Shown here one piece after another: positions 1,183-17,115 of a stretch of DNA of 64,000 nucleotides. A program made the position numbers and the translations under genes. Origin of the DNA: Thiomicrorhabdus lithotrophica (GTDB lineage Bacteria; Pseudomonadota; Gammaproteobacteria; Thiomicrospirales; Thiomicrospiraceae); the NCBI RefSeq assembly GCF_029201445.1, contig NZ_CP102381.1, positions 62,001 to 126,000 of the forward strand, written 5' to 3'. A model generated the notes under the pieces. It searched no databases. It was not told the origin of the DNA and worked only from the letters and a program-made list of their open reading frames with translations. Numbering within the stretch: position 1 is the stretch's first letter; the number at the start of each line of letters is the position of its first letter.

Positions 1183-2982
1183 ATGAAATATCAGCACATT
1201 ACTATCTTATTTACATTTCTTATATCGCTATTCTTGTATGGTTCGGCTTATGCCCAGAGCAATCAATCTGTTAGTTTAGATTGGTTTACTATGATCATGT
1301 GGCTTACCGGTGGCTTAGCGTTATTTCTATATGGAATGGAGCAGCTGATTAAAGGCTTGCTTGTCGTTGCGGGTGAACAAATGAAGCAACTGTTGGCTAA
1401 GTTAACTACGAATAGAGTAATGGGTGCTATTACGGGGGCTGGTGTAACAGCTGTTATCCAGTCTTCTTCTGTAACGAGTGTACTGACCGTTGGTTTTGTG
1501 TCTGCAGGTTTAATGAGTGTGGGACAAGCAGCAGGTGTCATTATGGGTGCAAACTTAGGTACAACGGTTACTGCACAAGTGATTGCTTTTAAAGTAACTA
1601 ATTTTGCACTGTTGATGGTAGCGGTAGGTTTTGCGATTCAATTCTTTGCCAAGCTTAACAATAAGATAGCTATAGGTAGACTTATAATGGGCTTGGGTTT
1701 GATATTCTTTGGTATGAATATCATGAGTGAAGGTATGGCACCTTTAAAAGATTACCAGCCATTTTTAGATATTATGGTTGAAATGCAAAACCCATTTTTA
1801 GGTATTTTAGTTGGCTTTGTTTTTACCGCACTGATTCAATCTTCTTCTGCAACGATTGGTATTATTATTGTAATGGCCAGTAACGGGTTTTTGGCTCTAC
1901 CAGCGGGTATTGCTTTAGCTATGGGTGCTAATATTGGTACTACAGTTACCGCATTGCTGGCTACCATTGGTAAATCTCGAGAGGCTAAAAGAACTGGATT
2001 AATTCACCTTCAATTTAACTTGTTAGGCGTATTAATATGGTTGCCTTTTATACCAGAATTATCGCAACTAGCTATTTATCTATCTACCCATGATGTAGTT
2101 CAAAATGGCGCTTCTATGGCTTATTTAGCTGAAAATACACCCCGTGAAATTGCCAACGCAAACACCATATTTAATTTGATTAGCTTGCTTATTTTTCTAC
2201 CAATGATACCTATATTCTTATGGGTGGTGAATAAGATACTACCTGTTTTAGAAGATGAGAAAAACTCGGTTTTTAATGCTGAATTTCTAGATGAGACATT
2301 TATAAATTCACCTTCTATGGCAATGGATGCAGTTAAGCTTGAGCTTGAGCAGTATCAACAGAAGCAGTCACTTTTCTATAAAAGAGTTGTCTCATTAATT
2401 CAATCACCCAACATAGACAAGTTAACTAAGGAAGACTTAAACCTTCATAGGTTTCGTTCTTATCAGCGCAAAATATTGAGTTATATGGGACGTATTGGTC
2501 AATCAGAACTAACGCCTGATGATCAAACTGAATACTTAAAGCTTATGAATGTTGTTAACAACCTTGAAGGTATTCTCGAATCTATAGAATTTAACATTTT
2601 GAATGTATTACATATGATGGTTCAAGGTAGTCATAAGCCAAGTGATACTATGATTGAACTAGTAGGTCAGTTATCTACAGAAGTAGGTAAGTCAATCGAT
2701 AACGCTTTATTCAGTATTTCCAAAAAAGATAAGGAAATGGCCATTGCTGTTATAGCAATCAAACCGACAATAGATTTATTGTTGCAAGATGCACTCAAAC
2801 ATCAGGTTAAATGTTTTAAACCCACTGAAGAGCGTTTGACTATTTTTAGATATGAAATGCAATTGATTGATGGTTTTAAACAGTTACATACTTTATGTAA
2901 ACGAATTGCTCGTTTAGAGTTGGCGTCTCATGTTGATGTGCAAAAACCAATAAGTAATCCTGATTCTCAAAATGTAGATTAA
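1183..2982 (+). CDS. Na+/phosphate cotransporter family protein (NptA/YjbB type)
   Basis: A 599-residue inner membrane protein. An N-terminal hydrophobic segment resembles a signal peptide (cleavage near ...SAYAQ). Two inverted repeats follow, carrying the family signatures VIQSSSVTSV (near residue 92) and LIQSSSATIG (near residue 218), the QSSS motifs that form the Na+/phosphate site. Each is followed by a GANIGTT or GANLGTT motif. The last 220 residues are soluble and alpha-helical, as in PhoU-like tails of this family. The role inferred is sodium-coupled phosphate transport. It stands alone, with 200 bases upstream and 277 bases downstream without genes. Confidence 0.88.
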   Translation: MKYQHITILFTFLISLFLYGSAYAQSNQSVSLDWFTMIMWLTGGLALFLYGMEQLIKGLLVVAGEQMKQLLAKLTTNRVMGAITGAGVTAVIQSSSVTSVLTVGFVSAGLMSVGQAAGVIMGANLGTTVTAQVIAFKVTNFALLMVAVGFAIQFFAKLNNKIAIGRLIMGLGLIFFGMNIMSEGMAPLKDYQPFLDIMVEMQNPFLGILVGFVFTALIQSSSATIGIIIVMASNGFLALPAGIALAMGANIGTTVTALLATIGKSREAKRTGLIHLQFNLLGVLIWLPFIPELSQLAIYLSTHDVVQNGASMAYLAENTPREIANANTIFNLISLLIFLPMIPIFLWVVNKILPVLEDEKNSVFNAEFLDETFINSPSMAMDAVKLELEQYQQKQSLFYKRVVSLIQSPNIDKLTKEDLNLHRFRSYQRKILSYMGRIGQSELTPDDQTEYLKLMNVVNNLEGILESIEFNILNVLHMMVQGSHKPSDTMIELVGQLSTEVGKSIDNALFSISKKDKEMAIAVIAIKPTIDLLLQDALKHQVKCFKPTEERLTIFRYEMQLIDGFKQLHTLCKRIARLELASHVDVQKPISNPDSQNVD

Positions 2983-3108
2983 CCAGTCCATTTTATAAAC
3001 TTTCATTTATTAACGTTAAATTAACAATTTTGGTAAATCTCTTCAAAAAAATGAGCTCTATAAATAGGTGTTCAAGATATTTTCTTTGGTTAATTAATAT
3101 CCTATATA

Positions 3109-3128
3109 GGGTTTTTATATAAAAACCC
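3109..3128. repeat. Perfect inverted repeat / hairpin
   Basis: The arms GGGTTTTT and AAAAACCC flank ATAT. It sits in the 277-base gap between the Na/Pi transporter and arsR. With no clear T-run after the stem, terminator function for either gene is only possible. Confidence 0.45.
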
Positions 3129-3259
3129 CGTGAAAAGCACCATATTAAGGATTTTTACCTTAGATAGTGTTTTATAAATCAATTATTAACGATTTTTAAT
3201 ATTTTATTGGTTAACAATTTGGTGTGAAGCAGATACCTTGTTTATGAAAACTAACCAAA

Positions 3260-3601
3260 CTATTTTGTTGAACAGGTTATACCATCACATTCTAATTTTT
3301 GTTTATCGCTACAAATTTCTGCAGTTTCTTCTAAAGCAGTTTTCAATTTTGAAATTTTTAGAATTTCGAGTGCTTCTGCTTGAAGTGCATAATGCATCCA
3401 TATTCCTTCACGCCAAGATCGAACCAATCCAGAATTTTTTAAATAGGCTAAATGTCTAGATACCGTACTTTGACTTAAGTCTAGTGCTTCAACGAATTCG
3501 CAAACACATAAAGACTCCTTCTCTAATAGTAAGTAAAGAATTCTGAGTCTAATAGGGTCGGATAGAGCTTTAAAGGTTTGGCTGATTGATTCTATATTCA
3601 T
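3260..3601 (-). CDS. arsR: ArsR-family metalloregulator
   Basis: A 113-residue winged helix-turn-helix repressor. The sequence LCVCEFVEALDLSQSTVSRHL holds the Cys-x-Cys sensor in the DNA-recognition region, as in As(III)-responsive ArsR of the E. coli type. It is followed by the helix-turn-helix and the wing (LVRSWREGIWMHYAL). The tail has two further cysteines (CDGITC). It is divergent from the plus-strand ars genes, and a perfect inverted repeat in the shared promoter region is a likely operator. The neighbours (ArsP-like permease, ArsC-like protein, GAPDH, ArsJ) support arsenic as the signal. Confidence 0.88.
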   Translation of the reverse strand: MNIESISQTFKALSDPIRLRILYLLLEKESLCVCEFVEALDLSQSTVSRHLAYLKNSGLVRSWREGIWMHYALQAEALEILKISKLKTALEETAEICSDKQKLECDGITCSTK

Positions 3602-4661: not shown

Positions 4662-5627
4662 ATGTTCACTCTATTTGACGAGTTAGGTAATTGGTTTTCT
4701 TATCAATTACTAGGACTTTCAACAGAAAATCAATTAGGTTCAGCAGTTCAGTTCTTTGTGATGGATATCGCTAAAATATTTTTTCTATTAGTCGTGATTA
4801 TCTATTTAATGGGTTTGCTCAGAGCTTTTGTATCTACAGAAAAGATTAGAGAAGTTGTTGCGGGTAAACCTAAGTGGATGGGTCGAAGTTTAGCCATTAC
4901 TTTAGGTTCTGTTACCCCATTTTGCTCCTGTTCTTCAGTGCCACTATTTATTGGTTTTGTAGAGGCTCGTATCCCGTTAGGAATTACCTTTGCTTTTCTA
5001 ATTGCAAGCCCAATGATTAACGAGGTTGCTGTGGTGATGCTAATAACTTTATTAGGCTGGGAAATCGCTTTGATGTATGTATTGGCAGGTGTGGTCGTTG
5101 CTTATATTGGCTCAATAGTGATCGAGTGGTTTAAGCCTGAACGTTGGGTTGAGTCCTATGTTTGGGATATTGAGATGCGTCAACAACAAGAAACAGAAGC
5201 CTTACAAGATAGTATTCAAAGACGTCACAGTTTTGCCTGGAATGAAGTAAAGGTAATTGTAAAACGGATTTGGTATTGGGTCGTGATAGGTATAGCCTTA
5301 GGCGCATTATTTCATGGTTATGTACCAGAGGCTTGGGTGTCTGAATATTTAGCAGACTCGTCAAATTGGTGGAGCGTACCCGCTGCTGTGTTATTGGGTG
5401 TGCCTTTATATTCTAATGCAACAGGAGTGATTCCCATTGTTGAAGCGATGCTAAACAAGGGTGTACCTATTGGTACAAGTTTAGCGTTGATGATGAGCAT
5501 TGCAGCCTTATCTCTACCCGAAATTTTGATTTTAAGAAAAGTAATTCGTTGGCCAGCATTAGCTATTTTTGTTGCGGTATTGGTCGTTGCATTTATATTA
5601 GTAGGTTATCTATTTAATATGATTTAA
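4662..5627 (+). CDS. ArsP-type permease (PF03773 family)
   Basis: A 321-residue inner membrane protein with about eight hydrophobic segments. The signature TPFCSCSSVPLF (near residue 86) carries the conserved Cys-x-Cys pair, followed by GITFAFLIASPMINEVA. A second repeat, LLGVPLYSNATGVIPI, is near residue 245. A charged cytoplasmic loop (about 155-195) joins the halves. Family members export trivalent organoarsenicals or serve as general permeases. Its place after arsR and before arsC-like, GAPDH and arsJ supports arsenical efflux. It starts 8 bases after the hydrolase stop, so the two are probably cotranscribed. Confidence 0.83.
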   Translation: MFTLFDELGNWFSYQLLGLSTENQLGSAVQFFVMDIAKIFFLLVVIIYLMGLLRAFVSTEKIREVVAGKPKWMGRSLAITLGSVTPFCSCSSVPLFIGFVEARIPLGITFAFLIASPMINEVAVVMLITLLGWEIALMYVLAGVVVAYIGSIVIEWFKPERWVESYVWDIEMRQQQETEALQDSIQRRHSFAWNEVKVIVKRIWYWVVIGIALGALFHGYVPEAWVSEYLADSSNWWSVPAAVLLGVPLYSNATGVIPIVEAMLNKGVPIGTSLALMMSIAALSLPEILILRKVIRWPALAIFVAVLVVAFILVGYLFNMI

Positions 5628-5657
5628 ACAAGCTACCACAGCCAGTATTTACTTATA

Positions 5658-5669
5658 CAGGCCTGGTAA
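5658..5669. repeat. CAGGCCTG-type palindrome copy (intergenic)
   Basis: CAGGCCTGGTAA lies in the 73-base gap between the permease and the thioredoxin fusion. It is a member of the dispersed palindrome family described in the findings. Confidence 0.7.
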
Positions 5670-5700
5670 CTTGAATTTTAAGCTTTATAAAGGAAAAGTT

Positions 5701-6309
5701 ATGAAAGGTAATATTATGATTCGCATGATTTCATTAATGATAATCGTGCCAGTACTATTAGCACATTTTTCAGGACAAATCGATTTGTTACAGCCTACTT
5801 GGTTATGGTTGACATTGTTTGCTGGTGTGAATGCGTTGCAAGCTACTTTTACGGGTTGGTGCCCTGTGAGGCGTTTCTTACCAAAGGATCCAGAAACAGG
5901 TGCGTGTTGTGTTTCCGATACTACTGGAACTTGTTGTGCTGGGGAATCCAAAGACGTAAGTAATAACTGTTGTGATGATAAAGACCAGACTAAACAGTCG
6001 GGATGTTGTGATAGCCCAAAAGATGAAGCAGCTTGCTGCTCTGAATCTAAATCGAGTCCATGTTGCGGTGATAATGGGATTGAAATTAAGGTTCTAGGTA
6101 CGGGGTGTGCAAATTGTGATAACACAATAAAACTGATTGAATCAGTAGCTGCTGAAGAAGGCGTGGTTGTTACGGTAATTAAAGTGGATGATGTGGCTGT
6201 AATAGCCTCTTACGGTGTCATGAGTACTCCAGGGGTAGTGATTGCTGAAAAGGTCGTGCATTCTGGGGGTATTCCTACAAGACAAGCTGTAGTTGCTTGG
6301 TTAAAATAA
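5701..6309 (+). CDS. Membrane-anchored Cys-rich thioredoxin-like fusion protein
   Basis: A 202-residue protein. The ATG at 5701 is preferred over a TTG at 5671 because AAAGGA lies just upstream. Domain order: a DUF2892/YgaP-like two-helix membrane segment (about residues 5-60, ending TGWCPVRRFLPK), a polar linker (about 65-125) with six CC pairs, then a thioredoxin_3-type domain (about 126-202) with the redox motif GCANC and a cis-Pro-type STPGVV. Small redox-active disulfide proteins of this class often accompany permeases of the preceding family. The CC pairs could bind As(III) or thiophilic metals; this is inference. Cotranscribed within the ars cluster. Confidence 0.8.
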   Translation: MKGNIMIRMISLMIIVPVLLAHFSGQIDLLQPTWLWLTLFAGVNALQATFTGWCPVRRFLPKDPETGACCVSDTTGTCCAGESKDVSNNCCDDKDQTKQSGCCDSPKDEAACCSESKSSPCCGDNGIEIKVLGTGCANCDNTIKLIESVAAEEGVVVTVIKVDDVAVIASYGVMSTPGVVIAEKVVHSGGIPTRQAVVAWLK

Positions 6310-6354
6310 TTTGTAGAGTGAGAATACTTATTAGCATTATTTTCAAGGAAGTTT

Positions 6355-6822
6355 ATGTACAACGTTTTATTTATTGATACCGAAAATTCAGCAAGAAGCA
6401 TTATTGCGGAAGCACTATTAAACCATTGGGGAAAAGACCAATTCAAAGCCTATAGCGCAGGTAGCCAACCTTCTGGTAAGTTGAACGAACATGTTGTTGG
6501 GATACTAGAACATGCAAAACTTTCTTTAGCGGATGCTCGATCAAAAGGATTAGATGAGTTTTCAGCAGAAGATGCACCACAAATGGATTTTGTTTTTATT
6601 CTGTGTGATAAAGCCCATGGAGAGATTTGTCCCATTTGGCCAGAACACACCATTACCGCTGTTTGGAATATTAATAGCCCCTATGTAGATGACTTACACA
6701 TCGATGCTGTAAGAGAAATTTTACATAGCCTAGAAAGTAGAATTAATTTATTTATACAGCTTCCAATCGAAAAACTGGAACACTTAAAACTTCAAAAAGA
6801 ATTGAATGCAATTGGTCAATAA
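6355..6822 (+). CDS. ArsC-like (low-molecular-weight phosphatase fold) protein lacking catalytic Cys
   Basis: A 155-residue protein with AAGGA before the start. It has the LMW-PTP/thioredoxin-coupled ArsC fold: VLFIDTENSARSIIAEALLNH at the N-terminus aligns with the family P-loop CxxNSxRS, but the nucleophilic Cys is Asp8. The later loop ILCDKAHGEICPIWP is conserved. The general-acid DP motif appears as NSP (near residue 108). With both catalytic positions changed, arsenate reduction or phosphatase activity by the usual mechanism is unlikely. It may bind arsenate or partner proteins, or be a divergent paralogue. It sits in the middle of the ars cluster, intact and undisrupted. Confidence 0.8.
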   Translation: MYNVLFIDTENSARSIIAEALLNHWGKDQFKAYSAGSQPSGKLNEHVVGILEHAKLSLADARSKGLDEFSAEDAPQMDFVFILCDKAHGEICPIWPEHTITAVWNINSPYVDDLHIDAVREILHSLESRINLFIQLPIEKLEHLKLQKELNAIGQ

Positions 6823-9764: not shown

Positions 9765-11828
9765 ATGACAAAGCAAGCTACTAATTTATCTGACAATCCT
9801 TTTTTGGTAGATTCACAATTTCCCCAATTTGGTTCGTTTCACGTGGAACATATTGAACCTGCTGTTTCACAACTGTTAAAAGATAACCGTAAAGTCATAG
9901 AAGATTTAGTAGCGGATAATAGTCAGCCGACTTGGCAAAATTTTATTGAGCCTTTAGAGTTTATCGATAACCGTTTTGAAAAAATTTGGGGGCCAGTAGG
10001 GCATTTAGATGCCACTATGAATAGTGATGAGTGGCACGAAGCTTATACTAATTGTTTAGAACAAGTTACCCAGTATTACACTGAAACAGGACAAAATGCA
10101 GGCCTCTACCAGAAGTTTAATCAGCTTGCTGAAAGTGATGAATATGAAACATATAACCTCGCCCAACAAAAAGTCATTGAGAATGCCTTACGCAATTTCC
10201 GTTTAAGTGGCATTGCTTTACCCAAAAATAAGCAGGCAATTTATAAAGAGTTAAAGCAACAGCTTTCTCAAAACAGTAGCCAATTTGGTAACAATGTTCT
10301 TAAAGCTACTCAGGCCTGGTATAAACATATTAAAGATGAATCTGAGTTAGCAGGCCTGCCTGAATCCGCAATGGGATTATTACAGCAGTTGGCTGGGCAA
10401 AAGTCTCTAGAAGGTTGGTGTGTGACATTAGATTTTCCATCCTATTTAGCTGTTTTAACTCATGCAGATAATAGAGAATTACGTGAAGAGGTCTATAAAG
10501 CATTTTCTACTAGAGCATCTGAACAATCGAACCATGCAGAATTTGATAACAGTGAATTAATTGAAACCATTAGAGCCGATCGTCATAAATTAGCTAGCTT
10601 ACTTGGATTTAAAAATTATGCTGAGTATTCATTAGCCACCAAAATGGCAGAAAGTACGGATCAAGTTCTTGGGTTCTTGAGAGACTTAGCGGTTAAGTCA
10701 AAACCTCAAGCAGAGAAAGAGCTCTCTACACTAAAGGCGTTTGCTAAAAGTACATTAGGGATTGATGATTTCCAGCCTTGGGATGTGACTTATGCCTCTG
10801 AAAAACTTAAGAATGAAACGCTTTCTTTATCTCAAGAAAAATTACGCCCTTATTTCCCAGTTGAAACAGTGCTTAAGGGGTTATTCTTAATTACAAAAAC
10901 GTTATTCAATATCAAAATCACGGTGAAAGAAGGTGTAGAAACTTGGCATAAAGATGTACGGTTCTTTGAGCTGACAGATGAAGCCAATCAGGTTGTAGGT
11001 CATTTTTACCTTGATTTATATGCACGTGAAAATAAACGTGGCGGTGCGTGGATGGATTCTGCGATTACTCGTTGGAAACATCCGCAAGGACAATTACAAA
11101 CGCCTGTGACTTATTTAGTATGTAACTTCACTCCACCTATTGGAGATAAAGAAGCCTGCTTAACTCATGATGAAGTCACAACATTGTTCCATGAGTTTGG
11201 TCATGGTATTCATCACCTATTTACTAAAATGGAACAGTTAGATGTTTCTGGTATTAGTGGTGTGCCTTGGGATGCGGTTGAACTACCATCACAGTTTATG
11301 GAAAACTTCTGTTGGGAGCGTGAAGGTTTAAACTTTATCTCAAGCCATATAGAAACGGGTGAAACTTTACCGGATGATCTGTTTGAAGCATTGCAAAAAG
11401 GCCGTGGTTTCCAATCTGCCATGATGATGTTGCGTCAAATTGAGTTTGCACTGGTCGATTTTGAACTACACACATTCTACAATCCAGATGCTCCTGAAGA
11501 TGTTTTGGATATTGCCCAAAGAATTCGCAACGAAGTGGCTGTAGTACAACCACCAAGTTACAGCAGACAGCTGCATAGTTTTAGTCATATCTTTGCTGGA
11601 GGATACGCAGCAGGGTATTACAGCTATAAATGGGCAGAGGTTTTATCAGCTGATGCATTTAGTCTGTTTGAAGAGACGGGCATTTTAAATTCAGAGACAG
11701 GAATGCATTTTAAGAATACAATTTTAGCAGCCGGTGGATCAGTTGATCCGATGGTGCTATTTAAAGCGTTTAGAGGACGTGAACCACAGATTGATGCCTT
11801 ATTACGACATAGCGGTATTCGTGCTTAA
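9765..11828 (+). CDS. prlC: Oligopeptidase A (M3 zinc metallopeptidase)
   Basis: A 687-residue cytoplasmic enzyme of normal family length without a signal peptide. The zinc motif HEFGHGIHHL (His476, His480) is present. It is followed by the downstream Glu region (DAVELPSQFMENF) and the substrate-binding YSYKWAEVLSADAF near the C-terminus. M3 oligopeptidases degrade short peptides, including cleaved signal peptides. Monocistronic. A parS-like site lies at the start of the gene. Confidence 0.95.
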   Translation: MTKQATNLSDNPFLVDSQFPQFGSFHVEHIEPAVSQLLKDNRKVIEDLVADNSQPTWQNFIEPLEFIDNRFEKIWGPVGHLDATMNSDEWHEAYTNCLEQVTQYYTETGQNAGLYQKFNQLAESDEYETYNLAQQKVIENALRNFRLSGIALPKNKQAIYKELKQQLSQNSSQFGNNVLKATQAWYKHIKDESELAGLPESAMGLLQQLAGQKSLEGWCVTLDFPSYLAVLTHADNRELREEVYKAFSTRASEQSNHAEFDNSELIETIRADRHKLASLLGFKNYAEYSLATKMAESTDQVLGFLRDLAVKSKPQAEKELSTLKAFAKSTLGIDDFQPWDVTYASEKLKNETLSLSQEKLRPYFPVETVLKGLFLITKTLFNIKITVKEGVETWHKDVRFFELTDEANQVVGHFYLDLYARENKRGGAWMDSAITRWKHPQGQLQTPVTYLVCNFTPPIGDKEACLTHDEVTTLFHEFGHGIHHLFTKMEQLDVSGISGVPWDAVELPSQFMENFCWEREGLNFISSHIETGETLPDDLFEALQKGRGFQSAMMMLRQIEFALVDFELHTFYNPDAPEDVLDIAQRIRNEVAVVQPPSYSRQLHSFSHIFAGGYAAGYYSYKWAEVLSADAFSLFEETGILNSETGMHFKNTILAAGGSVDPMVLFKAFRGREPQIDALLRHSGIRA
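9835..9850. other. parS-like site inside prlC
   Basis: CGTTTCACGTGGAACA matches parS at 14 of 16 bases. It is read in frame as Phe-His-Val-Glu-His near the N-terminus of oligopeptidase A. It is the weakest of the five sites. Confidence 0.6.
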
Positions 11829-11830
11829 TA

Positions 11831-11858
11831 AAAAAGCCCTTACTCAGAAGAGTAAGGG
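11831..11858 (-). terminator. Rho-independent terminator for the porin gene
   Basis: The arms CCCTTACTC (11837-11845) and GAGTAAGGG (11850-11858) flank an AGAA loop. Read on the minus strand, the stem is followed by a T-run (from the A-run at 11831-11835), so it best serves the porin operon. It also lies just after prlC. Confidence 0.75.
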
Positions 11859-11911
11859 AAAAATTGATTTCATTACAAAACCAATTACAACGAAAAAGGT
11901 ATTTTAAGATT

Positions 11912-13213
11912 TTAGAAAACCATCATTAGTTGTGCTGAAACTCGGTTATCTAGACTGTCTAATACATTATGAACTGGTGCTGCATCAGGAGCATCAGGAG
12001 CATCAATATCACGAATCTCATAGTTTAGGCGTACAGAGGTCTTTTTATTAAAGAAGTATTGTGCTCCTAAGGTTGTTGTTGTGAATATACGATGCTTATC
12101 ACCATTAGTGCCTGACTGCATGTCAGTTTCTGTTGCACTATCTAATACATCATAGCGAGCATTTAACTCTATATTAGGTTTGATTCGGTAACCAAGATCA
12201 AGTTGATAGGCTGTTGCTTTTTGGTCGGTAAACACCGTTAGTGGGTTGCCTGCCACTGCACTTTTGGGTCCACCAAAAATCATTCCATCAGCAGTGAAAT
12301 ATTCTGCTGCAACACGGTATTTTCCATCGTAATAAGTCATTCCTAGACCAGCTCGATCTCGATTATATTCTGTACCATCATAGGTACGTTTACCATCTTG
12401 TGACCAGGCATAGAACTTCATACTTTTACGTCTAGGACCTTGCGATTCGCCAAAAACTTTCTCAGTAGATGCGTATAAATATAAGTCTTTATTTTTGTCA
12501 TTATCAGATAGGGCTAATCCGTTACCATTACCATACATAATGGCATAGCTATGTTCCCAATCACCTTGTTTAAAGGTGTCAAATACTTGAATACCTGTAT
12601 CCCTAACAGCAAATGCTGCGTCAGTTCTGATTCCTGTTGCAATGTTATTAGCATCTACAGTACCATCAATTTTTCTTTCAATTAAAAGACGGTCAGTACC
12701 ATTTGTAAAATTGACATAATTAAAGACAGGGATTCCCTTAAAAGACTCTTCAGACCCAGGTGTTTTAAATAGTCCAACTCGAACTCTAGCGCCATCAAAG
12801 TGGTTTAGAGTGATACTCGCATCCGTCAACTGACCTTGTGAACCATTTTCACCTGTTGTGATACCGTTGTTGCCTAGTTCCGTCATAAGAAAGTAGTTAA
12901 CATTCTTATCTAAAGGAAAGTTGGCACCACGAACACCTATACGTGCACGTTTAACATTAAAACCACTAGCGGTAGTGAGTTGAGGTTGCATTTGGTTGAA
13001 TGCGGCTTTGCTTCCGTTAGGATGTAGAGTGTCATCAGTTTGTTGGTAATCAATTTGTGCAAATCCCCATAATTTAGCGCGTGGAGCTTGGTCTGCTTTT
13101 TCTGTGCCTTGAAGCATTAACCAGTTTGCTGCTTGGGCTGATTGAGAAGCCATTACACCTGTTAGAGCCAATAGGATGGCGGTTTTTTTGAATGCATGTT
13201 TTTTGTTTAGCAT
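11912..13213 (-). CDS. Phosphate-selective porin O/P-type outer membrane protein
   Basis: A 433-residue outer membrane beta-barrel. A signal peptide ends ...SQSAQA near residue 28. The mature part alternates polar and hydrophobic residues. It contains KRARIGVRGANFPLDKNVNYFLMTELGNNG, typical of OprO/OprP-type porins, and ends with an aromatic C-terminal strand (...SAQLMMVF). The solute is not clear: phosphate is the family default, but other anions are possible. It is the last gene after two DsrE-fold genes on the same strand and divergent from the ECF sigma pair, so it may belong to that regulon. Confidence 0.82.
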   Translation of the reverse strand: MLNKKHAFKKTAILLALTGVMASQSAQAANWLMLQGTEKADQAPRAKLWGFAQIDYQQTDDTLHPNGSKAAFNQMQPQLTTASGFNVKRARIGVRGANFPLDKNVNYFLMTELGNNGITTGENGSQGQLTDASITLNHFDGARVRVGLFKTPGSEESFKGIPVFNYVNFTNGTDRLLIERKIDGTVDANNIATGIRTDAAFAVRDTGIQVFDTFKQGDWEHSYAIMYGNGNGLALSDNDKNKDLYLYASTEKVFGESQGPRRKSMKFYAWSQDGKRTYDGTEYNRDRAGLGMTYYDGKYRVAAEYFTADGMIFGGPKSAVAGNPLTVFTDQKATAYQLDLGYRIKPNIELNARYDVLDSATETDMQSGTNGDKHRIFTTTTLGAQYFFNKKTSVRLNYEIRDIDAPDAPDAAPVHNVLDSLDNRVSAQLMMVF

Positions 13214-13269
13214 GTGTATCCTCGTTATCTTTTATTTTTTTGTTCTAGTTGTCTGTTTTAGATGGTGTA

Positions 13270-13749
13270 TCAAGGGCGTAAGTAGCTAAAACCTTGTCCT
13301 TGTAGATGAGCAAGTTCAGCAACACCGCTTGGTACAGTGTCTGCGTTTGAAGCATCGTATAGGTGTTTTTCAATATTGACCTGTCTGCCCTTGACCGTAT
13401 TTGCGCAGACTTTAAAGCTCACGCCTTGTAGTTTAAGTTTGTCAATTTTCTGTGACATAACTTGGTCTGCATTAGCCGACTTAAACTTGGGAGTTTCTTT
13501 AAGTGCTTCGGGTTTAAGAATCATTGATAAACCATTTCCATGCATTACAACTCTGATATCTAAATTATCAGCACCAACAGCATTGATATGGTTTTGAATG
13601 TTCCTTAAAGCGCTAGATTGCTTTGTCGCATTGTCGTAGTTAACGTGGTAAACAACTTTTTGTTTGCCATAGTTTTGGTCATTTGCCATGCATGAAAATG
13701 ACAAACTTGTGATGATTGCCATGATAAGAATTTGAATAATTCTGTTCAT
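13270..13749 (-). CDS. Periplasmic DsrE-fold protein
   Basis: A 159-residue protein with a signal peptide (cleavage near ...SCMA, residues 20-22). The pattern KVVYHVNYDN...ALRNIQNHINAVG...DIRVVMHGNGLSMI...GVSFKVCANTVKGR...VPSGVAELAHLQGQGFSYLRP is that of DsrE/DsrF-like (PF02635) proteins. Cys115 is in the position of the conserved family cysteine. Family members carry or handle sulfane sulfur. The second DsrE-like protein is encoded just upstream, 27 bases away, and the porin just downstream. Confidence 0.8.
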   Translation of the reverse strand: MNRIIQILIMAIITSLSFSCMANDQNYGKQKVVYHVNYDNATKQSSALRNIQNHINAVGADNLDIRVVMHGNGLSMILKPEALKETPKFKSANADQVMSQKIDKLKLQGVSFKVCANTVKGRQVNIEKHLYDASNADTVPSGVAELAHLQGQGFSYLRP

Positions 13750-13776
13750 TTTTAGTACCTTTGTTTTTAGTTGACC

Positions 13777-14235
13777 TTATGGTTTCAGTATCTGCCAACC
13801 AGCTTTATTGAGTTGCAAGATGCGACCGGCTCCTGCAGGTACGATAACGACAGATTCTTGAATTTTTGGTTTATAGCCAAGCTTTTTTGCCATGTTATTG
13901 ATTGTGTTATCACAGGCACTAAAACGAACACCGTTGGCAATTAGGTTGTTAATACGGCTGGAATTGGTGTTACCGTCAAACATTAGGCGAACTCCTGGAC
14001 CAAAAGCGACTACTTCAATATCAACATTTTGAGCTTCGTAATATCTTTGTAAGTTGCCTGCAACATTTAAAACTAAAGTTTGTTTGAAGGGATCACTGTC
14101 ACTTATTTGTAGAACTACTTTGTTTTCTGCAAACGTATCAGGAAGCGGAGTTTCGGATTGTGCGGCGTATGTGGGTAGACAAACCAGTAAGCTAAGAAAC
14201 AAGCCTATCAATTTTTGTAAATGTAGTTTTTGCAT
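13777..14235 (-). CDS. Periplasmic DsrE-fold protein, second copy
   Basis: A 152-residue protein with a signal peptide (about residues 1-24, ...PTYAA). It has the same fold signature as its neighbour: VVLQISDSDPFKQTLVLNVAGNL, DIEVVAFGPGVRLM, GVRFSACDNTINNM with Cys108 in the conserved position, and a C-terminal GWQILKP. The two copies are diverged in sequence. It is first in the minus-strand operon, facing the ECF sigma gene across 210 bases. A sulfur- or thiol-related role is inferred from the fold. Confidence 0.78.
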   Translation of the reverse strand: MQKLHLQKLIGLFLSLLVCLPTYAAQSETPLPDTFAENKVVLQISDSDPFKQTLVLNVAGNLQRYYEAQNVDIEVVAFGPGVRLMFDGNTNSSRINNLIANGVRFSACDNTINNMAKKLGYKPKIQESVVIVPAGAGRILQLNKAGWQILKP

Positions 14236-14285
14236 AAAGTTATCCTTTAAAAGTTAAATACAAAATGATGCGCGCATAACCTTTA

Positions 14286-14311
14286 AACGAATGAGGCTTG
14301 TGCTTTATTCC
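14286..14311 (-). promoter_or_regulatory. Possible ECF-type promoter for the DsrE/porin operon
   Basis: Read on the minus strand, GGAAT (14311-14307) and CGTT (14289-14286) are separated by 17 bases. This resembles the GGAAC-N16/17-CGTT layout seen with some ECF-type sigma factors. It lies about 50 bases before the start of the first DsrE gene. No matching copy was found before the sigma gene. Confidence 0.3.
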
Positions 14312-14445
14312 ATTTATTTTTGATGAAAAAATTTATTAGGTCAGCAGACTTTCTAATATCATAACTTGCTAATATATATAGGGTTTTACAAATAATAATA
14401 TTTAGATTAGTATCGAAAAAAGGCTAATTTTAAAAGATAGAGCAG

Positions 14446-15024
14446 ATGACACTTACAAATACGGTGGCTAATTTATTTAGCGAAACACACAAGAAACGGA
14501 AATTGAATGCTTTATTTGAGCAACAGCACCGTACTTTATATAGATTGGCATATGCATGGTGCCACCAAGTATCTCAAGCAGAAGATTTGGTGCAAGAAAC
14601 CCTGCTAAAAGCACTAGAAACTAGTAAAGAACTCGACAATTTAGAGCATTTAGATGCATGGTTAGTTAAGATAATGCATAATAAGTTTTTAGATACTATG
14701 CGCTATAATCGCCGATGGCAATTGACTGATGAGTCTGAAATTGACGATTTTTTTGTACAAGAATGTAGTGAAAGTAAGTTAATAGAACAGCAAACCTCAG
14801 ATTGTATTTGTAAGGCAATGGCTAGACTCTCATTTGAGCAGCGTGAAGCCATTGCTCTAGTAGATTTACAGGGATTTAGTTATCAACAAATTGCTGAAAT
14901 TACGGGTACTCCTATAGGTACCGTGATGAGTCGTATTTCACGTGGCAGAGAGAATTTGATTAAGATTATGAAACAGATGGAAAAAAGCACGTCGAACATC
15001 GTGCCTTTACGGAGAGAGCCATGA
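14446..15024 (+). CDS. ECF-type RNA polymerase sigma factor
   Basis: A 192-residue protein. Region 2 covers about residues 28-95 (YRLAYAWCHQVSQAEDLVQETLLKAL, then DAWLVKIMHNKFLDTMRYNRR). Region 4 covers about residues 125-180 (LSFEQREAIALVDLQGFSYQQIAEITGTPIGTVMSRISRGR). There is no region 1 or 3, as expected of ECF sigma factors. The stop overlaps the next start by four bases (ATGA), so the anti-sigma is translationally coupled. It is divergent from the DsrE/DsrE/porin operon, the likely target. Confidence 0.92.
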   Translation: MTLTNTVANLFSETHKKRKLNALFEQQHRTLYRLAYAWCHQVSQAEDLVQETLLKALETSKELDNLEHLDAWLVKIMHNKFLDTMRYNRRWQLTDESEIDDFFVQECSESKLIEQQTSDCICKAMARLSFEQREAIALVDLQGFSYQQIAEITGTPIGTVMSRISRGRENLIKIMKQMEKSTSNIVPLRREP

Positions 15025-15704
15025 GCCATTCAATTGAGACATATCACCTACATGCTTATCTTGACGGGGAATTAAGTCATGATGAGTGTATCGAGGTTGA
15101 AAAGGCGCTATTAATTGATACTGATTTACGTAAACAGCTAGATGAATTTAAAGCGCTGAAAGTGAATGTACAGCAGACCTATGAATCCATTCCTGAATCA
15201 AATATTCAGTTAACCAAAAGAACACCTAAAAAAATCTGGAGTATACCTAAAACAGCTGCAGCGTCACTATTTTTAGGTTTAGTAATAGGTGCTGGCTTAC
15301 TTAACGTGGTGATTGATAAAAATGGATATGGTTCAGCAATAGAGCAACCATTATCTGAAAACTACTTAGTACATCTTGATTCTGATACCCCAGAAAAGCA
15401 ACAGCAGGCGATTCGAGAGATTGAAGCTTTATTGAGTTCAGGAAGCTCTAATGTCAAAGTTGATTTAGTTTCAAATTTTAAAGGTGTTCAGTTATTTGAT
15501 GTGAAGAATCCTAATAATTCAGAGCTAACCCGTTTACTTGATAAGTATGACAACTTGACTTTATTTGCATGTAAAAGGGCATTGGATAGGGCAATTAAAA
15601 ATGGAAAGCCGATTACCCTTATGCCTAAAGTTCAACATGATAAGCCAGCAATTGATGCAGTGGTAGAACGTTTGAATTCTGGCTGGAACTATATGAAAAT
15701 TTAG
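15021..15704 (+). CDS. Membrane anti-sigma factor with periplasmic DsrE-like domain
   Basis: A 227-residue protein. The cytoplasmic N-terminus (YHLHAYLDGELSHDECIEVEKAL...DTDLRKQLDEF) has the usual anti-sigma layout, without a full HxxxCxxC zinc motif. One membrane helix spans about residues 78-98. The periplasmic part (about 112-227) reads NYLVHLDSDTPEKQQQAIREI...VKVDLVSNFKGVQLFD...NLTLFACKRALDR...GWNYMKI, which follows the DsrE pattern of the two divergent genes; Cys184 falls at their conserved Cys. This suggests a sensory DsrE domain that controls release of the sigma factor. The fold call for this domain is by eye. Confidence 0.75.
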   Translation: MSHSIETYHLHAYLDGELSHDECIEVEKALLIDTDLRKQLDEFKALKVNVQQTYESIPESNIQLTKRTPKKIWSIPKTAAASLFLGLVIGAGLLNVVIDKNGYGSAIEQPLSENYLVHLDSDTPEKQQQAIREIEALLSSGSSNVKVDLVSNFKGVQLFDVKNPNNSELTRLLDKYDNLTLFACKRALDRAIKNGKPITLMPKVQHDKPAIDAVVERLNSGWNYMKI

Positions 15705-15789
15705 ATTATCAATTATTGAAAATAGCAGAATTTCTGTGTTAATTAGGTACACTGTGTAATAACTAAATTGCGATTGATTATTATTTATT

Positions 15790-17115
15790 ATGCAGAAACC
15801 TCTTTTAACGGTAAATTCTGGATTACTTTTTTCTCAAAAGTTCTATCCTATTTTTTGGGTACAGTTTTTGGGTGCGTTTAACGACAATCTTTTTAAAAAT
15901 GCCTTAGTGATGTTAATCACGTTTAGGCTATCTCACTCTTCTCTTGATACCGGGCTGTTAATTACTTTAGCGGCAGGGCTGTTTATTTTACCTTTCTTTC
16001 TGTTTTCATCTTTAGCTGGGCAAATTGCTGATCATTATCCAAAACGATTACTTATTAAAAAGATCAAATTGCTCGAAGTGTTGATTATGCTTTTGGGTGG
16101 GCTTGCTCTACTTAGCCAAGAGTTGAGTCTGCTGTTTTTGACGCTATTTTTAATGGGAAGTCAGTCGGCCTTTTTTGGGCCAATTAAATATTCGATCTTA
16201 CCTGAGATACTCGATACATCTGAACTTTTAAAAGGTAATGGTTTGTTTAGTGGTTCGACCTTTATTGCCATTTTATTAGGCACTATTTTAGGTGGTATTG
16301 GTGTCCTTCTCGAGGATGGGTTATGGTTGATGTCTGTCGTTATTTTTATTGTTGCTTTAGCAGGTTATATCTTTAGTCTACGCGTTAATTCCGATTTTTC
16401 TGGTGACAGTACTTTGCAAATTGAATGGAACTTATTTAGCAGTACAAAACGAATGATTAAAGAGAGTCGACAGCATAAAACAGCGTTCTTTTCGGTTCTT
16501 TCTATCTCATGGTTTTGGTTTATTGGTGCCGTTTTATTGAGTCAAATTCCTGTCTTAGTAAAGTATGATTTACAAGCTAATGATAATGTCGTCATTGTTT
16601 TTTTGGCTTTGTTTTCCATAGGTATTGCACTCGGTGCTGGGGCTATTGGGCGTATAATGTTGAGCCAAGCACATATTAAATGGCATTGGTTGATGTTGCT
16701 GGGTATGACAGCGACTTTGCTATTGGCTGTCGTGAGTATCGCTAACACAAACTTTAATAACCTGGTGTATTTACAAGATGCTCCACATGGAACATTGCTA
16801 ACGTTTACTCAGTTTATTGCAATTTGGCCAGCTAGTATGAGCTTGATAGCACTTGGCGCTTTGGCGGTTTTAGGAGGAGCTTATATCGTGCCTCTTTACA
16901 CTCTATTGCAAACTCATACGCCTTTGGCGGTCCGTGCTAGAATGGTGGCCGTCAATAATATTGTGAACGCCTTATTAATGGTGTTGTCAGCGCTATTATT
17001 GATGGTAGGTTTTGCTCTAAACCTCAGTTTATTGAATATGCTATGTATTTTGGCATTACTGAATATAATCGTTACGATTTTTGCCTTTAAAAAACGATTT
17101 ATAGTCGTTGAGTAG
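15790..17115 (+). CDS. MFS transporter, lysophospholipid transporter LplT-like
   Basis: A 441-residue, roughly 12-helix protein. The N-terminus FYPIFWVQFLGAFNDNLFKNALVMLITF is the hallmark of the LplT-like group often fused or linked to acyltransferases. GQSAFFGPIKYSILPEIL-like (here GSQSAFFGPIKYSIL) and the DHYPKRLLIKKIK loop follow. The next gene encodes an Aas-type bifunctional acyltransferase 36 bases on. The pair probably flips lysophospholipid inward and reacylates it. Confidence 0.85.
   Translation: MQKPLLTVNSGLLFSQKFYPIFWVQFLGAFNDNLFKNALVMLITFRLSHSSLDTGLLITLAAGLFILPFFLFSSLAGQIADHYPKRLLIKKIKLLEVLIMLLGGLALLSQELSLLFLTLFLMGSQSAFFGPIKYSILPEILDTSELLKGNGLFSGSTFIAILLGTILGGIGVLLEDGLWLMSVVIFIVALAGYIFSLRVNSDFSGDSTLQIEWNLFSSTKRMIKESRQHKTAFFSVLSISWFWFIGAVLLSQIPVLVKYDLQANDNVVIVFLALFSIGIALGAGAIGRIMLSQAHIKWHWLMLLGMTATLLLAVVSIANTNFNNLVYLQDAPHGTLLTFTQFIAIWPASMSLIALGALAVLGGAYIVPLYTLLQTHTPLAVRARMVAVNNIVNALLMVLSALLLMVGFALNLSLLNMLCILALLNIIVTIFAFKKRFIVVE

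Follow-up and report, generated by a model that had tools for sequence, protein, structure and literature searches.

We describe here a five-gene unit of Thiomicrorhabdus lithotrophica that we read, with moderate confidence, as a membrane-spanning sigma/anti-sigma switch serving sulfur metabolism in the periplasm, centred on an anti-sigma factor whose C-terminal half is predicted to have the fold of the DsrE family. The unit lies in a stretch of 64,000 nucleotides (nt) of this genome (labelled G000), which we call the window and whose numbering is used for all coordinates below. Its genes form two divergent groups. The plus strand encodes a predicted extracytoplasmic function (ECF) sigma factor of 192 amino acids (14446-15024) and the anti-sigma factor of 227 amino acids (15021-15704), and the minus strand encodes two secreted, single-cysteine DsrE proteins, DsrE-2 (13777-14235, 152 amino acids) and DsrE-1 (13270-13749, 159 amino acids), followed by an outer-membrane porin of 433 amino acids (11912-13213) as the final gene of the presumed operon. 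The gaps on the minus strand are short, with 27 base pairs between DsrE-2 and DsrE-1 and 56 between DsrE-1 and the porin. The reading frames were found where the initial annotation of this DNA had placed them, including the ATGA overlap of the sigma and anti-sigma genes.

With only regions 2 and 4 in about 190 residues, the product of the upstream plus-strand gene is by sequence an ECF sigma factor: Pfam Sigma70_r2 (4e-14) covers residues 23-90 and Sigma70_r4_2 (1e-15) residues 120-171, and the NCBIfam sigma70-ECF model scores 82 bits against a cut-off of 42.9. The DsrE assignment of its partner required profiles, because the window anti-sigma searched alone against Pfam returned zf-HC2 (3.5e-5, residues 9-30) and no DsrE match. 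A profile from a 29-sequence anti-sigma alignment (A1) matched the solved structures of MTH1491 (1L1S, 3.3e-16, over positions 117-230 of 231) and ST0148 (2PD2, 1.6e-9), and hhalign aligned it with the profiles of DsrE-2 (A2; 98.3%, E 2.5e-14) and DsrE-1 (A3; 96.4%, E 1e-9). Pfam DsrE was matched unaided by 4 of the 29 anti-sigma homologues (best 1.2e-6). For an AlphaFold model of the anti-sigma factor built from 12 sequences, the top Foldseek match was again 1L1S (E 3.4e-7, template modelling (TM) score 0.89 by target). Next in rank were 2PD2 and an engineered DsrE-like protein, and further members of the DsrE family, TusBCD (2D1P) among them, came after these. Profiles and model together predict a DsrE fold of the MTH1491 branch for the C-terminal half of the protein. 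The initial annotation had noted that the exported part of the anti-sigma factor resembles the divergently encoded DsrE proteins and had proposed comparing residues 112-227 with DsrE folds; both the profile alignments and the modelled fold bear it out.

The anti-sigma factor can be divided into three parts. Roughly residues 1-60 (15021-15200, plus strand) form three helices in the model and probably constitute a cytosolic anti-sigma domain, which among the 29 homologues matches zf-HC2 in 21 and, weakly, RseA_N in two. A zinc-finger anti-sigma factor, as the Pfam name would imply, was rejected since the zinc ligands are unconserved in A1, leaving no conserved zinc motif. A hydrophobic, probably transmembrane segment lies at about residues 80-98 (15258-15314, plus strand), the highest-scoring 19-residue window of the protein (mean Kyte-Doolittle 2.28); the best such window across the 29 homologues ranges from 1.49 to 2.52. 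The DsrE-type domain occupies about residues 112-227 (15354-15701, plus strand) and would face the periplasm. An N-terminal helical domain in a gene coupled to that of its sigma factor places the predicted protein among the class I anti-sigma factors.

A single cysteine, Cys184 (codon 15570-15572, plus strand), is present in the exported part of the anti-sigma factor, and all 78 full-length anti-sigmas that we collected have exactly one cysteine in their last 125 residues, always at this site. In the alignments Cys184 is invariant in 29/29 anti-sigmas, Cys108 in 22/22 DsrE-2 proteins and Cys115 in 19/19 DsrE-1 proteins, and each is the sole cysteine of the exported part, as delimited by hydrophobicity, in all 29, 22 and 19. 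The initial annotation had it that all three proteins keep one cysteine, which is correct for the exported parts and incorrect for the whole proteins, as the window's DsrE-1 and DsrE-2 each carry another in the signal peptide and the anti-sigma factor carries Cys23 in its N-terminal part. The conserved anti-sigma residue aligns with a cysteine of MTH1491 in the profile match, and the active cysteine of DsrE/TusD probably sits at the same place. Because it is single, an internal disulfide is ruled out for the exported domain; a persulfide, a thiosulfonate, a mixed disulfide or a metal ligand would each fit.

DsrE-1 matches Pfam DsrE at 2e-10, and DsrE-2, which has a signal-peptide-like N-terminus, does so at 0.0016 (19 bits, under the Pfam cut-off of 22.7); profiles A2 and A3 match 1L1S at 5e-15 and 2e-11. 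In a tree of DsrE domains, thinned from 165 to 106 rows, with few columns, an unsettled bootstrap and labels taken from our own profiles, the anti-sigma, DsrE-2 and DsrE-1 sequences form one clade each (support 99/96, 98/84 and 99/86). Given these three separate clades the unit looks old, and the sensor domain does not look like a recent copy of its neighbour; an origin by recent duplication of the neighbouring DsrE gene is unsupported, the anti-sigma domains clustering apart from both DsrE groups. Additional DsrE-type genes were also observed. Single relatives have extra DsrE-1 or DsrE-2 copies near the unit (L046:7470-7973(+), L044:3679-4134(+)), and outside the unit T. lithotrophica encodes a signal-peptide-bearing DsrE-like protein (L219:4922-5446(-)) that is matched in several sister genomes. 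It also encodes, in another stretch (L220, G000:C1:1497000-1510000), a secreted DsrE-1-like protein (2860-3351(+)) about 1.5 kilobases (kb) from soxB (4840-6753(-)); this protein sits on a long branch, its placing is unsure, and no site of the GGAATA type described below was found in the stretch.

That the sigma factor drives the DsrE/porin operon is very probable, and a conserved candidate ECF-type promoter was found in front of it. In the window the predicted site reads GGAATAAA-N14-CGTT on the minus strand (14286-14311) and ends 50 nt before the DsrE-2 start. The shared motif, GGAATA-N15/16-CGT(T/C), was present on the DsrE-2 strand in 20 of 22 intergenic regions (21 from the window's family and one other) and on the sigma strand in none, with 2 matches in 8800 dinucleotide-shuffled strands as control. 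The two misses are L055 and L044, the latter having its site inside a called frame, where it was found later; L042 was excluded from this count as its region was shortened by a called frame, and its site was found separately. Counted over all loci of the window's family, a site is directed toward the divergent operon in 23 of 26, the others being two loci whose contigs end there (L033, L045) and one (L054) with the site before a downstream DsrE-1 gene. In other families the motif occurred on 21 of 44 strands versus 11 in 8800 shuffled ones; among the 22 loci concerned, both strands carried it in 9, the DsrE-2 side only in 1, the sigma side only in 2 and neither in 10. When these last ten were inspected by eye, without a control, GGAATA proved to be followed by another -10 element, in many cases TCT-like, except in L167, where the usual -10 element stands at a longer spacing. 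Over all 52 other-family loci, 36 have a site, directed toward the divergent operon in 18 and toward sigma in 34. Altogether 81 matches were counted in 75 loci (1,005,289 bases), about nine of them, by eye, away from sigma, anti-sigma, DsrE and porin genes. The initial annotation's proposal that the sigma factor expresses the DsrE/porin operon thus receives strong support from a conserved predicted promoter, and a GGAATA/CGTT-type sequence is the sigma factor's candidate recognition site.

Other leads from the motif were set aside. A secreted rhodanese-like gene of the same genome (G000:C1:2455478) was entertained as a second target, and is read as a chance hit since its exact match overlaps the start codon; the third exact match of the genome falls inside a coding frame. 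A comparison of sigma residues between loci with CGTT, CGTC and TCT-like -10 elements proves nothing on promoter specificity, because the groups follow kinship.

To determine how far the arrangement is kept, we assembled 77 loci, the window's among them, that together encode 78 full-length anti-sigmas, 26 from the window's family and 52 from other families. The set holds same-genome or near-copy loci (L046/L047, the two in L182, L051/L052), and 40 further class loci were taken roughly by descending score, mostly one per genome, and so are not random and under-represent weak matches. The sigma gene lies directly upstream of the anti-sigma gene in 26/26 and 51/52 cases (L185 being the exception), or 77/78 overall. 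Among loci that are adequately flanked, meaning by at least 3 kb upstream and 1.5 kb downstream, a DsrE gene is in place in 22/22 of the window's family and 29/40 of the others, and a divergent porin gene in 20/22 (absent from L052 and L054) and 23/40, respectively; in some loci (e.g. L100-L102, L183, L193) DsrE-1 is found downstream of the anti-sigma gene. Ten of the 13 family loci whose outer flanks we judged to differ have flanks of adequate length, and these retain DsrE in 10/10 and the porin in 8/10. Neighbour clustering of 56 loci, namely the 40 from other families and a further 16 picked because they are distant or flanked differently, recovered the DsrE/anti-sigma families in 51, sigma in 46 and porin in 30; no other family was widespread, the next being present in 6. 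Linkage of the sigma/anti-sigma pair with DsrE genes, on which the initial annotation had staked its reading, is therefore conserved in most, not all, of the class loci examined.

The reach of the family depended on the query. A single-protein anti-sigma scan of named genomes returned no relative, and a scan of the same genomes with a 12-sequence alignment returned 67 loci, 11 of them (L092-L102) with full-length anti-sigmas of this kind, L096 of T. chilensis included, and the remaining 56 matching the query in part, mostly through its N-terminal residues. At E 1e-3, 30 of the 58 genomes searched (T. lithotrophica included) gave an anti-sigma match, in some cases partial. A phylum sample of 398 genomes gave 8 matches at E 1e-18, of which 3 are full-length and belong to the same class, one being T. 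lithotrophica itself; the other 5 come from other classes and cover the DsrE part only, without the N-terminal domain. As an aside, a pair encoding a GMC oxidoreductase and a gluconate 2-dehydrogenase subunit 3-like protein recurs near the unit in L043, L046 and L053.

Carriers of the fused anti-sigma are nearly restricted to genomes with sox or dsr genes. The profile found matches at E 1e-5 in 122 of 369 genomes of the class, in many of them via DsrE alone; we counted as carriers the 68 with a best E below 1e-23 (our own threshold; the matches of G293 and G298 are partial) and left out G125 and G334, whose matches are split over contigs and which both have SoxB. At family level, the 68 carriers represent 40 groups of the class sample. 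SoxB (E 1e-30; 148 of the 156 matching genomes exceed the curated cut-off) was found in 66 of them versus 90 of 301 other genomes (Fisher 1e-26), DsrA (E 1e-50) in 53 versus 64, and one or the other in 68/68 versus 101/301, the two carriers without SoxB (G090 and G293) both having DsrA. T. lithotrophica itself possesses SoxB. No DsrA match at E 1e-50 was obtained in this genome or in 14 other carriers (15/68), and the unit does not show the occurrence with dsrA that is expected of DsrEFH and the reverse Dsr pathway. In two loci of one family (L215 of G191 and L216 of G301), soxX, soxA and soxB, together with soxZ in L215, stand on the same strand behind the sigma and anti-sigma genes and all score above their NCBIfam cut-offs; the promoter motif lies just upstream of sigma, and DsrE-2 and porin genes are divergent. 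The SoxB association and these sox genes support the sulfur context that the initial annotation had assumed. In L187 (G202) a true soxB adjoins a DsrE-2 gene. For proteins facing sigma in L162 and L177 a SoxB identity was rejected (101 and 175 bits versus a cut-off of 550); these SoxB-like metallophosphoesterases (L162:1-1362(-), L177:4053-6227(-)), with the motif on both strands, could be a different target of the same switch.

In the mechanism that we propose, the cytosolic helical domain of the anti-sigma factor would keep the ECF sigma factor bound at the inner membrane, while the same protein would place a single-cysteine DsrE-type domain in the periplasm. A reduced-sulfur species would modify this cysteine, to a persulfide or to a thiosulfonate from tetrathionate or polysulfide, either directly or relayed from secreted DsrE-1 or DsrE-2, whereupon the anti-sigma factor would be inactivated or degraded and sigma freed. 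Free sigma would then transcribe from GGAATA-N15/16-CGT(T/C) promoters, which in the window would mean the DsrE-2, DsrE-1 and porin operon, and would thereby supply putative sulfur-carrier or scavenger proteins of the sensor's own family along with an outer-membrane channel; in many other families such a predicted promoter also stands before the operon of sigma itself, and one family additionally has sox genes behind sigma. A precedent for the chemistry is the reported formation of Cys-S-thiosulfonates on DsrE3A with tetrathionate, as given in the sections of that paper covered here (PMC4175335). We infer the ligand, the role of the cysteine as sensor and the release step. A role of the DsrE domain as the sensor of sulfur state in the periplasm appears reasonably likely; direct modification of Cys184 is more of an open bet, which we place slightly on the doubtful side. 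Slightly less likely still is the broadest version, in which the anti-sigma family might sense periplasmic reduced sulfur directly on one DsrE-type cysteine loaded by secreted DsrE paralogues, and might govern periplasmic sulfur oxidation generally among the sulfur oxidisers of the Gammaproteobacteria, with sox itself under its control in some lineages.

The same loci could be interpreted in other ways. The anti-sigma DsrE domain might be a docking module that free DsrE-1 and DsrE-2, or a DsrE-porin complex, bind, stabilise or hide, with sigma reporting unoccupied DsrE in a negative feedback, as RseB acts on RseA. DsrE folds are known to build mixed oligomers, TusBCD (2D1P), a heterohexamer of DsrE fold, is among the fold matches, and sensor and presumed targets belong to one family and are mostly still linked. 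On the other hand, docking alone does not require the lone cysteine that is kept in 78/78, and 11 of the 40 adequately flanked loci of other families are without a nearby DsrE gene, though one may lie elsewhere; overall we consider docking feedback unlikely, if worth keeping in view. The lone cysteine might instead sense thiol-reactive toxicants (arsenite, mercury) or oxidants, making the operon a detoxification response. Arsenite did change the expression of DsrE/F-like genes in two Thioalkalivibrio strains and of a porin gene in one, in the part of that study covered here (PMC6620896), genes that might, or might not, be those of this unit. A toxicant sensor would sit poorly with the presence of SoxB or DsrA in all 68 carriers and with the sox genes behind sigma and anti-sigma in L215 and L216, and strikes us as quite improbable.

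A switch of the RseA type, responding to envelope stress by monitoring porin assembly, with the DsrE domain as a structural remnant and sulfur incidental, would account for the porin at the end of the presumed operon, divergent in 20/22 and 23/40 adequately flanked loci, and for the weak RseA_N matches in 2/29 anti-sigmas. A remnant is not expected to keep its lone cysteine in 78/78, and the association with sulfur oxidisers also counts against this explanation, which we regard as a very remote one.

Several observations weigh against the sulfur-responsive switch itself. The anti-sigma model is of moderate quality (predicted local distance difference test (pLDDT) 71.8, predicted TM score 0.46), and its residues 61-110, comprising the linker and membrane part, fall below a pLDDT of 50. 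The unit is missing from part of the genus, as 10 of 31 relatives at this rank gave no anti-sigma match, the near-complete G018 and G024 among them, and no DsrE gene is nearby in the 11/40 loci of other families mentioned above (L058, L165, L166, L169, L171, L177, L180, L191, L194, L197 and L218). Since outer neighbours are also kept in about half of the loci of the window's family, linkage there is in part plain synteny, and the SoxB association counts genomes rather than independent events. As regards the promoter, one of the 26 family loci (L057) has a site toward sigma, and the strict motif is absent from 16/52 loci of other families. In the whole genome of T. lithotrophica the exact motif gave 3 matches versus 4 for a reversed control, and 6 versus 8 when one mismatch was allowed, so that the motif alone, not being above its control, predicts no further targets in this genome.

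Some additional features of the locus are less directly tied to the switch. The porin was assigned by Pfam (Porin_O_P, 4e-7) and had no sequence match in the PDB at E 0.1 or better. On its 3' side is a terminator-like hairpin (11837-11858, minus strand) with a 9-pair stem and a T tail; it is the sole such site on the minus strand in 11800-15900, although with 4 sites on both strands versus 2.9 in shuffles it is weak alone. The sigma gene may have a housekeeping promoter, TTTACA-N17-TAGTAT (14385-14413, plus strand), as suggested by a consensus scan that is itself weak (13 sigma-70 matches versus 13.6 in shuffles). Two blocks before the sigma gene (within 14333-14421) recur in the window's family, in 14/23 upstream regions with at most 2 mismatches and 15/23 with at most 4, respectively. 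Both differ from the GGAATA motif, and one overlaps the sigma-70-like -10 hexamer TAGTAT, which lies inside the block present in 14/23.

The overall organization is that of ECF/class I anti-sigma pairs such as those of RseA and RsiV, with adjacent or overlapping genes, a helical domain, one membrane segment, a sensor beyond it and an adjacent target promoter; what differs is the putative sensor, here a sulfur-carrier domain of DsrE type that is a paralogue of the secreted proteins of the predicted target operon. With the DsrE/DsrF family, in the MTH1491 (1L1S) branch and its relatives DsrEFH and TusBCD, the domains share the predicted fold and the conserved cysteine aligned with that of MTH1491. 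The DsrE proteins known from sulfur metabolism act as soluble carriers in the cytoplasm, whereas one domain here is fused to an anti-sigma factor and two have signal-peptide-like N-termini. FecI/FecR systems similarly encode a sigma factor, a membrane regulator and an outer-membrane protein together; the outer-membrane partner here is a Porin_O_P porin and not a TonB-dependent receptor, which sets the unit outside the FecIR type.

Links between ECF pairs and sulfur oxidation have precedents, which we cite from the portions of each paper covered. The pair RpoE1/RpoE4 (ECF26) of Sinorhizobium meliloti answers thiosulfate or taurine, probably via sulfite, and is tied to periplasmic sulfur oxidation through control of a periplasmic sulfur-oxidising enzyme; its target is sorT, and those portions mention no DsrE sensor (PMC3511301). 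ECF/anti-sigma pairs have also been described upstream of sulfite-oxidising enzyme genes (PMC6527743). In Arcobacter butzleri, ECF sigma-2 and sigma-7 change sox operon expression, and 5 of 7 ECF pairs are flanked by TonB-receptor genes, again with no DsrE sensor mentioned there (PMC3445524). A classification of class I anti-sigma factors gives conserved fused domains per group, and its main text contains no word that starts with 'Dsr' (PMC7406223), and an account of DsrEF in Hydrogenovibrio thermophilus mentions no sigma factor in the sections covered (PMC5733100). In the open-access literature, judged mostly by title or abstract and with most subscription journals outside its scope, we found no description of an anti-sigma or ECF protein fused to DsrE, in agreement with the initial annotation, which knew of no anti-sigma factor with a DsrE sensor. 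What is new here is thus ECF signalling with a putative DsrE sensor, as opposed to ECF control of sulfur oxidation itself.

Sulfur-oxidising Gammaproteobacteria must match their periplasmic sulfur chemistry to supply, and no such sensor for this task is described in the papers considered here. The unit offers a concrete candidate in 40 family-level groups, for which the cysteine and the targets are defined and a promoter is predicted. With such a candidate, a single reporter and a single point change would be enough to test how sulfur oxidisers perceive thiosulfate, sulfide or polysulfide. If our reading is true, it would add a sulfur-carrier fold to the sensors of ECF systems and give a role to secreted MTH1491-type DsrE proteins, and sulfur carrier and sulfur sensor would turn out to be the same protein family. 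The unit may be how T. lithotrophica and related sulfur oxidisers sense sulfur outside the cell.

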